A DNA stretch of 64,000 nt. It comes from Aquila chrysaetos chrysaetos (Eukaryota > Chordata > Aves > Accipitriformes > Accipitridae). Numbering within the stretch: the stretch's first letter is position 1; each line of letters starts with the position of its first letter. The DNA lies in contig NC_044019.1 of assembly GCF_900496995.4 (NCBI RefSeq), positions 3,286,001 through 3,350,000 on the forward strand, in the 5' to 3' direction. The notes under the pieces were generated by a model. It ran no database searches. It was not told the DNA's origin and saw nothing but the letters and a program-made list of their open reading frames with translations. Shown in pieces: positions 55,253-61,200 of the stretch. The position numbers were made by a program, and so were the translations under genes.

Positions 55253-58200
55253 TTAAGAGGTAGCAGCAACCACGCCCACCTTCTGGGCAGCTTCTTTCTT
55301 GGCTTGGTGAGCCTGCAACACCGCAACAGCCTCCTCCACCTCGGGGAGACAAGTTACCTAGTGAGACCTGCTCTCTTGACCAAAGCCTCCCACAATCCAC
55401 CCCATCTAAAGGAACAAGCCAGTTTACCTTTGACCGGAGGGACTCAGGAGACTCGAGCATGTGCAGCAGCTCTGAGTTGTCAATCTCTAGCAGCATTCCT
55501 GTGATCTTCCCTGCAAGGCTGGGGTGCATAGCTTGAATCAGAGGGAACAAACGTTCCCCTGGGGGGGGGGGGGAAAAAAAAAAAAAAAAAGGAGTTCACA
55601 TAGCTGAGTTTCAATTAAAAAGTCATCTTTGAAACCTGAGGGGATTTCCAAAGTAAAATGCAGTCTGTAAGGACTGGAATTTCACTTACCCAGCATCTGT
55701 TTCTGCTCCTGGGGAGGGGCAGCAGCCAGCATGGAGGCCGTTAGTGGTTCCTGTCCCTGCACATGTACTGCAGGCTGAGGTGCCTATATAGAAGGGCAGA
55801 CATGAGGGTTCTGAAATAGATACTAGGCTGATTGCTTCATGTTTAGAGACAATAATAAGATATTCCCTCCTTCCAAAACACAACCTTTGTCAAGCCTACA
55901 GGAGACTTAAGTTTCAGAAAAGGACAGATAAGGTGCCCTTAGTTCACAAACATGCTCCCTCCAAGTCCTGAACTCAAAAGCCTAAAATGTCACACACGGG
56001 CACTGTAAATATCTTACAAAAACTGGATCAAACATTGTGAGACAAATATTGCAATTGAGAAAGAGCAACATCCACGCCTGCTTTTTTTACAACATAGAGG
56101 TTTGTGGGAGAAGCAAACTGTGCTTTCAGTGATACCCTAGTGAGGATATGGCAAAGAGGTGAGAGAATGAATGGTTGCAAAACGGGCAAGCAAAGAACCA
56201 AAAAAAGATCCTAACAGCAAATCTGGGTAAAAAATGGCTTGCAAGTACAAGACAGATAAACCAACCAGGTTGCCCCGGCAAAGGTAAAACTGCCAGGTTT
56301 TTAAATTCCAAATTATGATGCCTGTCTGGGTTATAAAAGTAGCTTGAAGTTTCTGTAAAAACACTTCAGTTGCATGTAAAACCTGTTGGACTGCAGTAAG
56401 TGCAGGGACTTCACAGCCCAGACCCTTGTGTTACCTGCAAAGGCTGTACAGCTGGGTGTGGGCTGCGGACACTTGAGGCATATTTATAAGGAGGAACCGC
56501 TCTGGGAGCAGGGGCAGCTACAGGCGGACGAGGAGCTAAATTCTGTGCTGCGGTGCCAACGCCTGCAAAAGAAGAGAACAGAATTACAAACACCTGTAGC
56601 AACGTGGAAGCAAGTTGGGATGTCTGATATTAACAGCTGAATTCAAACTATACTCTGCACAGCAATACTTCTTTAGAAACTGGTCTCCAAAATGCAACTG
56701 GCTACTTCAGGAAGGGGCTATTCTCCCTAAAACTAAACCATGGATTCCACATCTTGCATTCAAGGTATTTTCTAGCTATTCACTGGCATAAAGTGAATTT
56801 GGATGCTCTACTCTGAGAACAATATCCATAACCTACACAGCCTTTTTATTTTTTTTTTGTGAGTGGTAGATGTTGCAGAGGTGTAGAGATGAGTTCCAAA
56901 CCAGTGGAAACCCATCTGGATTTCCACTGCTGTGCTGTAGCACCAACTGTCCCCAGACCCGCACTGCACAGCAAGGAATAGGAAAGATTCAGGTGCTGTC
57001 TCTGCCCCTTGCTCCAGGTGGCCTTTGGTTATCCGTATCTGACAACCATCTTTGGAAGTAAGAAGTCAAGTCTCAATAGCATCCTCCTCCCTCACAGACA
57101 AGGGGAAGAGCCTGGGAGGCAGACACCTTACCAACTCGCTGGGCAGCGGCAGGGAGGCCACGAGAGGCCGGAGCATTGCCGGCAGGGGCCAGATGGCGCA
57201 GTGCTGGCCGTGGTCCAGACTGGCGCATGGCATTTGGCATTCCCTGGAAGCCTAATGGAAGAAATGAGGGGAAATCCTCAAAACAGAACCGACTGGCAAG
57301 TCAGGACAGTCAGCTACAGGAAGCAGGTTGGGGTTGTGCATGGAAAGGAAAGCATGCATTGTTCTTGTTGGAAAGTAGAGCCAAAAGGGTCATACAACCA
57401 AAATGTTGTCTCTAGCATGCCCACCTTGAGGTCTTCCCCCTTGCTGCCAGCGTGGGTTGGGTCTCATCTGCGTCATCTGATTGGGTGCATAGTAAGTGGG
57501 TCTGCTCTGAGCCTGCAGAAAGATCAGACAAGCTCAGAGGCAACATCTAAGTGAGTAACAAACATTGTTTACAACATGTTTTGGCAGTTGTTGCCAGGAC
57601 TCAACACTCAATTCGCATTAAGAGAACAGGCAGCCGGGAAGTCACAGAATTAACTCCACTGACTGCACCCCTCATTAGGAGTTATTTGCTTATAGGCATA
57701 AGAAAGGCTCAAGGAGATTACTACAGCTGAGCCATCAAAGCTCCAAGACAGGTTAAAAAAACAACACCAGCTCAGCTCACCTGGGGCACAGCAGGCATGA
57801 AATATCCCCCAGCAGCAGGCTGGAACTGATTAATGATTGTGTTGGCAGGCAAGGCTCTCATCCCAGCAATGCGCTGCATATACTGATTAGTTAGATGGGC
57901 CTTTCGCTCCTCTTTCCTTTGTGCAAGTGCAACATACAACGGCTTTGAGCCCACAATTCGCCCATTCATCTCTGTCACAGCTTTCGTAGCTTCCTCTGGA
58001 GAGGAAAAGCAGACAAAGCCAAACCCTTTGCTCCGTCCATCTTCCAGCATCACCTGCAGTAAAGATCAATTGCTAGTGGAGTACCAGTAAAAGAACTTAG
58101 CCTAAGAATCCATATTTTTTCAATGTCAGATTTCAGGCAGGTAGGACATAACTGTTGCAGAGGTGTAGAGACAGGTACTTGGTGAATGAGAAGTCACCTG

Positions 58201-61200
58201 TCTGGATTTACTCTGCTTTTCTGTAAGCACCATGTGTCCCCAGGCCCACACTGCACAGTAAGGAATGGGAAAGATTTGGTGCAGCCTCTAAACACATATA
58301 GGGAAATGTCATTTCATGCTTATTGGCAGTCACCTCAAACAAGCATGTTTGCCACTTCCTGCCTCCCTCTTTTCATGAGGGAACGAAACAAGTAAGTTTT
58401 CAGTAAAATCCCACCGAGACCCAAAGAAATCTGTGTATTTACTAGTCCAGATGTTCTCAGGACCACAATGACCAGGGATATAAGAACTGCTCTTCAATCC
58501 CATGTCAATAAAAGTTCCTTCTTCAGGCTTTAAAATCCAAATACTCCCAAACCCCACAATACCTTGGCACTCGTTATTGACCCAAAAGGTGAGAACTCCT
58601 TCCTCAGTTTTTCATCATCTATAGTGTCATCTAGGTTTTTAATGTATAGGTTAACACCCTAGAAGGGAGAGAACAATAAGACATTCATAACAAAGAAAAT
58701 CTTGAGCACCTCGACTGTTAGCATCCGTCTGCCAGAGCTGTAACGTGTCTGAAAACTCTTAATTTAGCATAATGTTCCTTTCATACCACCCAAAGCTGAA
58801 GGCGATAAATATTGCAAAGGCGTAGAGACAAGTCCCACTGTGGTGAAAGGGAGCTTGTCTGGATTTCCTCTGCTTTCCTGTGGCATTGCATGTCTCCAGT
58901 CAGCACTATATCGCAAGGAGTGGGAAAGATTCAGATGTCATCTGACGTGACCCAGTTTTGCCATAAATTAGAAAGACAACAGTATAGGGTTATGCTGTCT
59001 CTTACCATCCTTCTAGGTATCCCCATCCGAAAATAAAGGAGCCTGCGTGACTGTTTTCTTATGTCCTCCTAAACATTTCATTGCCAAGACTATGCGCCCT
59101 GATGCCCCCTTTGCCCCCAAATATCAAGGAGTCACCTTTACATTTTAACTCCCAGGATATCTTATTGGACAATGACGGATTACTTTGTCAACTCCTTTCA
59201 AGTCTGCCAATAGACTGAAAACAGTGCTTAAATTCATTAAAGGAATAGACTATTCACCTGGTACCGGCTGAGTCTCTCTTGTTTTAGCTGTTCAAACTTC
59301 CGTTTCAGCTCTGCCTGGCGCTCGACCTTCTTCTGTGCTCGGCCTACAAATACCATTTTCCCATTGATATCCTTTCCATTCATTTCTTCTACTGCCTGGA
59401 CAGAGGGTTCAAGAGGAAACTGTCAACTGCTGAAGCGAGACAGCACCTGATCCTGTTAAGAACAGGACTGTTCAAAGCTCACATTGTACCCCTGCCTGTT
59501 AGCCAATAAACCAAGGTTGCTGCATTACCTTTGCGCCACTTCCGTGTAACAATGGCTAACTAAAGACAAACTGAAGTTATCAGGAGAGACCATGCTGACA
59601 CCACCACTCTAAGTGCTGGACAAACAGCAACTTGTGAATTTATCCCCACCCCTTCTTGCAAACAAGGCCAAATTTTAACTAGCATACTACTTAGAGAAGA
59701 CCATTTCTAAGCAATGTTCTCACTCCAGATATCTTCCTCCTCCTTAAGCCCTGCATTGTAGTATTTCTTCAGCAATTAACATTCTTGATTATACCACTGC
59801 ATTTTGTGTGGATCTAGTAATTTGGAGAAATGCCAAGTTACCCTTGAACATCAAACTAGTGAGGTGCAAAAGGTTTCCACGTTCACACATCTAGAAAAGG
59901 TTATGCCTGAGGCAGAATTTTCTCTCATTTTAGTAATAGGCTCCTATGATAAACCAAGTAAGTTTTTCTTCTCCGAAGATACCCAAGCAGCATAAAAATT
60001 GGTCATACCTTGTTAGCATCTTCATGCTTTTCAAAGCTTACAAAGCCAAAGCCTTTGGATTTTCCGGTGGGGTCTGTCATCACTTTAACACTCAGAGTTT
60101 TACCTGTTACCAAAGCACAGGGTTAGTAAAATATCATAAAACTATTTCAAGACTATTAAACTCCATATAATAGTCCCAGCTCTCTCTCTCACCTGCTGGT
60201 CAGTCTCTGCCTCCTGTCCAACATTTGGCACAACTACTACCCACACCTCAACTCTTTGTATTCCTCAGCCTCAAAGTGACCCAGGTAAACTGTTAAACTA
60301 CCATGGGTCATGAAATTCACAGCCTCATTACAAGTGTTTCTGTATTTACCATATTTGCTGAAGAGCTCCTTTAGTCTTTCATCATCCATGTCATCCCCAA
60401 AGTTTTTAATATAAACATTGGTGAATTCCTTTGCCTTGGCTCCCAACTCAGCCTCCCGCTCTTTACGAGACTTGAATCTCCCAACAAATCTGTAAGAAAG
60501 AAGGAAAATCCCCATGAGCAGCTCGTTTTCAAGAGTGGAAAAACATGTGTGACTTGCAGCAAGGCAAAAAATGAGTGTGTAGTAGAAGCTGGGAATGGGG
60601 ACAAGAAAGGGTGACAGCAGAACAGAAGGACAAACAGGCCACAGACCAACCAGAAAAATCACCTGTCCTATGGTCGGCCAAAGATGCCCACCCAGCTCTG
60701 CAGTGGAGAGAGTATTGGCCACAGAAACCCACCCCAGCCCACTAGCAAAGAGGTAGCAAATCAAGGCTTGGTTAGGGAAACCCACCAGCCCTGTAATGGA
60801 GGGGTAGCAGGCCATGGCTTGGGCAGGGTCACTCACCAGCCCTGTAGTGGAGAGGTAGCAGGCCAAGGCTTGGGCCAGGAGAACCAGTGCCTTGTGTGTC
60901 CCTGTTAATACCGAGATGCATCACGGTTCATGCGATCGTTGCTGCTTCTGGCTGTGACACTCACACTTTGCGGTCGTTTAGCAGCATGCCGTTCATCTTC
61001 TCGATGGCTCTATCTGCAGCATCCTGGGTCTCAAAGTGCACAAATGCGTAGCCCTTAGAGCCATTCTCATCACACACCACCTAGATATGGGAAAGGAAAA
61101 CAAAATGTCAGCTCTCAACATGTTTTCTCCTCTGTCACGCTCAGACACAAGGCCAGCACAAGAAAATAGGCTACTGCCAAGGGTCTACACTAGGAAGACA

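Follow-up and report, generated by a model that had tools for sequence, protein, structure and literature searches.

Three SNORA55 copies in introns of an avian PABPC4 gene are predicted to guide modification of 18S rRNA at U36

Three introns of the PABPC4 gene examined here each carry a copy of the H/ACA snoRNA SNORA55. The reading that best accounts for this arrangement, to which we assign a probability of roughly 90%, is that the copies are paralogs that were duplicated within the gene and that guide modification of U36 of 18S rRNA, wherein the copies in introns 10 and 7 are competent and the copy in intron 6 is weaker. The three RNAs belong to the same family, occupy defined intron positions, share an identical guide, and are complementary to the conserved 18S site in the rDNA of other eukaryotes. 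From these features we infer their processing, expression and catalysis, as well as any dosage effect of three copies. The array provides a clean case of intragenic snoRNA expansion in which, probably, two bird lineages have kept the copies in the same three introns. A three-copy SNORA55 array in PABPC4 is already known, having been published for chicken in 2009.

The window, meaning the whole 64-kb stretch of DNA analyzed, was searched with the Rfam 15 covariance models at their gathering thresholds, for which the SNORA55 (RF00431) cut-off is 45 bits. All three matches that reached this level are to SNORA55, and each lies on the minus strand and spans model positions 1 to 135:

56868..56996, minus strand: SNORA55 copy c1, PABPC4 intron 10 (RF00431, 120.3 bits, E 1.6e-25; 29/31 Rfam pairs)
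58150..58282, minus strand: SNORA55 copy c2, PABPC4 intron 7 (RF00431, 119.3 bits, E 2.9e-25; 29/31 Rfam pairs)
58807..58938, minus strand: SNORA55 copy c3, PABPC4 intron 6, with a weak 5′ hairpin and an AUA box (RF00431, 83.4 bits, E 4.7e-16; 25/31 Rfam pairs)

The first-pass annotation had placed SNORA55-family members at these three intervals, and the covariance model bears this out for 3/3 copies; the high ends given in that annotation exceed the 5′ end of the model by 4 nt (c1), 4 nt (c2) and 6 nt (c3). A permissive Rfam scan of positions 52700 to 64000 (E up to 5) returned the same three SNORA55 matches along with three sub-threshold matches to other families, and no fourth SNORA55 copy in this interval. 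When the search was extended to the bird's own assembly (1,233,704,830 bases in 144 contigs, or 1.23 Gb), no SNORA55 was found elsewhere among the 42 candidates scored, out of at least 158,865 first-look candidates. The presence of three copies in one gene and of none elsewhere among these scored candidates agrees with the earlier proposal that a single guide had expanded within its host gene, an expansion that is not new.

The host gene was mapped by tblastn and by its splice-site contexts:

55244..61590, minus strand: PABPC4 exons 2 to 14 and the introns between them, ends approximate (tblastn with human PABPC1, splice-site contexts)

The coding exons matched on the minus strand are flanked by AG/GT contexts. 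Exon 10, for which tblastn gave no match below E 1, was placed by its splice contexts and by a translation that bridges exons 9 and 11. The first exon is found upstream of the window, in the neighboring 10 kb (90.9% identity over amino acids 1 to 66), and since exon 2 begins at amino acid 65, no coding exon is missing between the two. The resulting exon order assigns c3 to intron 6, c2 to intron 7, and c1 to intron 10, although an unseen noncoding 5′ exon would shift these numbers. This exon map agrees with the initial identification of PABPC4 as host of all three copies, with the choice of PABPC4 over PABPC1 resting on synteny with PPIE. The downstream gene we take to be PPIE from the start of its protein. 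The host of human SNORA55 is PABPC4 as well, and the human gene carries one SNORA55 as opposed to the three copies observed here.

Each copy carries the sequence elements expected of an H/ACA guide RNA, positioned as follows:

56983..56989, minus strand: c1 guide half AAUCUUU (sequence, alignment, pairing scan)
56948..56951, minus strand: c1 guide half GACA (sequence, alignment, pairing scan)
56933..56938, minus strand: c1 H box ACAGCA (read from sequence)
56871..56873, minus strand: c1 ACA box (model alignment and sequence)
58270..58276, minus strand: c2 guide half AAUCUUU (sequence, alignment, pairing scan)
58235..58238, minus strand: c2 guide half GACA (sequence, alignment, pairing scan)
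58219..58224, minus strand: c2 H box ACAGAA (read from sequence)
58153..58155, minus strand: c2 ACA box (model alignment and sequence)
58925..58931, minus strand: c3 guide half AAUCUUU (sequence, alignment, pairing scan)
58891..58894, minus strand: c3 guide half GACA (sequence, alignment, pairing scan)
58876..58881, minus strand: c3 H box ACAGGA (read from sequence)
58810..58812, minus strand: c3 AUA box (model alignment and sequence)

An H box and a terminal ACA or AUA box are therefore present in each copy, as had been described. When compared in pairs on the Rfam alignment, c1 and c2 agree at 95/127 positions, c1 and c3 at 91/127, and c2 and c3 at 84/130; 74 of the 135 columns are invariant among all three. 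The guide halves AAUCUUU (columns 8 to 14) and GACA (columns 46 to 49) are the same in 3/3 copies, as originally noted. The further argument that a guide kept amid drift speaks for function holds in part: the guide is indeed identical throughout, but given the number of invariant columns, and with 3/135 circular placements of the 7+4 pattern fully invariant, this identity alone is modest evidence of selection. The 3′ pocket (AAAUCC / CUAC) is as invariant across the three copies as the 5′ guide. The pocket of an H/ACA RNA is expected about 14 to 16 nt upstream of the H box. The GACA half begins 13 (c1), 14 (c2) and 13 (c3) nt before this box, so the target U sits one base further away, and the pocket-to-H-box spacing is correct, as had been claimed, once that nucleotide is counted.

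As target sequence, we used eukaryotic rDNA found inside 14 prokaryote-labelled records, of which four (L003, L007, L011 and L013) were scanned; none is from a bird, and we assume that the 18S U36 site is conserved to birds. The nucleotide homologous to human 18S U36 is the top site for the 5′ pocket in 12/12 scans (three copies by four rDNA loci), with pairing around U36 of 7+5 for c1 and 7+4 for c2 and c3 in this non-bird rDNA. The predicted pairing with 18S rRNA on both sides of U36 is thus upheld in the rDNA of other eukaryotes. Within the bird's own assembly, an exact 26-nt 18S motif had no match; a shorter motif of 18 nt, searched with one mismatch allowed, matched once, the same as its reversed control. 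This outcome may mean that the assembly lacks rDNA. Viral contigs gave no 18S match either. For the 3′ pocket, scanned in six registers against the same four loci, no pairing exceeded the range of 3+5 to 4+6, and every such site lay upstream of the 18S motif; this search covered little 28S sequence, the sole LSU stretch in the three loci checked with Rfam corresponding to model positions 24 to 358 of 3401. The records themselves merit a remark. Eukaryotic SSU rRNA occurs in L003, L011 and L013, which are labelled Blastococcus, Brenneria and Planomonospora, respectively, and in L013 Rfam recognizes a full-length SSU together with 5.8S, 5S and partial LSU sequences. The presence of eukaryotic rRNA in prokaryote-labelled records points to contamination.

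Base pairing provides a second line of evidence. Five pairs (4-54, 84-113, 85-112, 86-111 and 96-106) are changed on both sides between copies, and these two-sided changes speak for selection on structure. Each hairpin was also folded alone and its stability compared with that of 200 mononucleotide shuffles. The 3′ hairpins have folding energies of −21.8 (c1), −22.2 (c2) and −25.8 (c3) kcal/mol, and 0/200 shuffles are as stable for any copy. The 5′ hairpin, which forms the U36 pocket, reaches −20.7 kcal/mol in c1, a value that is not extreme because 27/200 shuffles are as stable, and −21.8 kcal/mol in c2, where 6/200 are. The corresponding hairpin of c3 reaches −10.4 kcal/mol, and 140/200 shuffles are as stable or more so. 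The hairpin–H box–hairpin–ACA architecture is complete in c1 and c2; in c3 the boxes and the 3′ hairpin are present and the 5′ hairpin is not stable. By this modeling, c1 and c2 have the appearance of competent guides for U36, whereas the competence of c3 is in doubt. The weak 5′ hairpin of c3 leaves two strong U36 guides, such that the earlier suggestion that several copies are functional finds good structural support for c1 and c2 but weaker support for c3.

These observations raise the alternative that no more than two of the copies, and perhaps a single one, are functional and that c3 is a decaying pseudogene, which still resembles SNORA55 since its duplication is not old enough for the resemblance to have been lost. 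This alternative is tentative, though it is the strongest competitor. Its appeal lies in the score of c3, well below the approximately 120 bits of the other copies, in its fewer preserved Rfam pairs, including a C-A mismatch at pair 15-45 directly above the pocket, and in the poor stability of its 5′ hairpin. However, c3 has an intact guide, an intact H box and an intact 3′ hairpin that no shuffle equals, it participates in the two-sided change at pair 4-54, and chicken also has a copy in intron 6, as tabulated in PMC2653536. We favor the reading in which all three are paralogous guides of unequal strength. Under that reading, each copy would be released from the spliced PABPC4 intron and would be expected to bind the H/ACA core proteins (dyskerin, Gar1, Nop10 and Nhp2), and its 5′ pocket would position 18S U36 for conversion to pseudouridine. 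The intron-6 copy is predicted to be a probably stable RNA by virtue of its strong 3′ hairpin, yet a weaker guide for U36.

The closest known relative of the array is chicken GGgACA4. Table 2 of Shao et al. (2009, BMC Genomics 10:86, PMC2653536) lists this snoRNA as three isoforms of 131 nt located in PABPC4 introns 6, 7 and 10 and directed at 18S-36 through 7+4 nt in the 5′ pocket. The array described here shares the number of copies, the introns, the target and the pairing, and it probably comes from another bird species; the likeness is drawn from the description in that table. Because the same three introns are occupied in both birds, the array probably predates the split of this lineage from chicken. 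The same table includes a further predicted chicken 18S-36 guide, GGgACA5, and the paper gives U69/ACA55 as the mammalian functional homologs of GGgACA4; the text of its RT-PCR section does not name GGgACA4. To SNORA55/ACA55 (RF00431) itself, the copies are linked by the full-length model match, the guide and the boxes. Among the titles and abstract openings returned for PABPC4 and SNORA55, no other paper on snoRNA copies was found, a literature search for intragenic snoRNA copies in birds yielded nothing related, and the main text of a paper on rhesus snoRNAs (PMC2832892) makes no mention of PABPC4 or ACA55.

How the copies arose can be judged in part from their surroundings. The 200-nt flanks exhibit no similarity between copies in 6/6 comparisons (in the closest, 23/200 shuffles are as good), for which the simplest reading is an old intragenic duplication with eroded flanks. 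Shao et al. regard duplication within genes as probably the chief way in which chicken snoRNAs multiplied, and they report paralogs that have diverged outside conserved guide regions (PMC2653536). Retroposition of the mature snoRNA into PABPC4 introns, as opposed to recombination within the gene, would equally leave dissimilar flanks, and it could draw on an A-rich run 3′ of c1 and on the argument, made in an excerpt of PMC8178906, that human H/ACA copies arose mostly by retrotransposition. We consider this origin unlikely and have rejected it, because the longest exact repeats flanking the copies (6 nt for c1, 7 nt for c2 and <6 nt for c3) are at background level, with 480/1000 random placements reaching 6 nt or more. 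Moreover, all copies reside in one gene and in one orientation, with none elsewhere among the 42 scored candidates, and, for chicken, Shao et al. saw no clear sign of snoRNA retroposons (PMC2653536).

A second guide bears on U36. In mammals, SNORA69 (U69) is described as guiding this position (excerpt of PMC11001866), the same role that is predicted here for SNORA55, and PMC2653536 assigns both functions of human U69 to separate guides in chicken. The bird's own assembly contains a single match to SNORA69 (RF00265; 85.6 bits, 44 candidates scored), which is located between RPL39 exons and retains its 5′ pocket. In the 3′ hairpin of the SNORA69 Rfam consensus, pairing around U36 is possible (6+5 with G-U allowed), although an alternative register ties with it. 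By comparison, the best four combinations listed for the bird's SNORA69 include no U36 pocket in the 3′ hairpin; they attain 4+5 at most and span two hairpins. The extra SNORA55 copies might compensate for the missing SNORA69 pocket, but a gain of this pocket in mammals is just as conceivable. The broadest version, in which the array compensates in birds for a lost SNORA69 3′ pocket while the 3′ pockets of the copies guide a further target and the intron-6 copy is perhaps specialized, strikes us as the least probable of the explanations considered. Together with paralogous SNORA55 guides, the missing SNORA69 pocket makes turnover of guide copies for a single rRNA modification testable on a small scale.

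Several other repeats are present in the window. A perfect hexanucleotide array at 52867-52965, with 16.5 copies of GCCGGG (equivalent to GGGGCC, the repeat unit of human C9orf72 expansions), is situated a short way upstream of exon 1 of the PPIE-like gene. A direct duplication of approximately 250 bp (53257-53507 and 54450-54701, spacing 1193-1194 nt) lies downstream of the stop codon of PABPC4 and is 97% identical over its first 201 nt and 100% identical over its last 54, which indicates that it is much younger than the snoRNA copies. PABPC4 intron 3 holds a 51-nt unit repeated three times in tandem (60734-60886), the second and third units matching the first at 69% and 73% identity, and positions 33353-34362 form a complex minisatellite with nested periods of 16, 48 and 64 nt and longer. 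Outside the window, records L022 and L023 match parts of chicken cytochrome b at 70% and 41% identity; these matches are interrupted by stops and are probably nuclear mitochondrial fragments.
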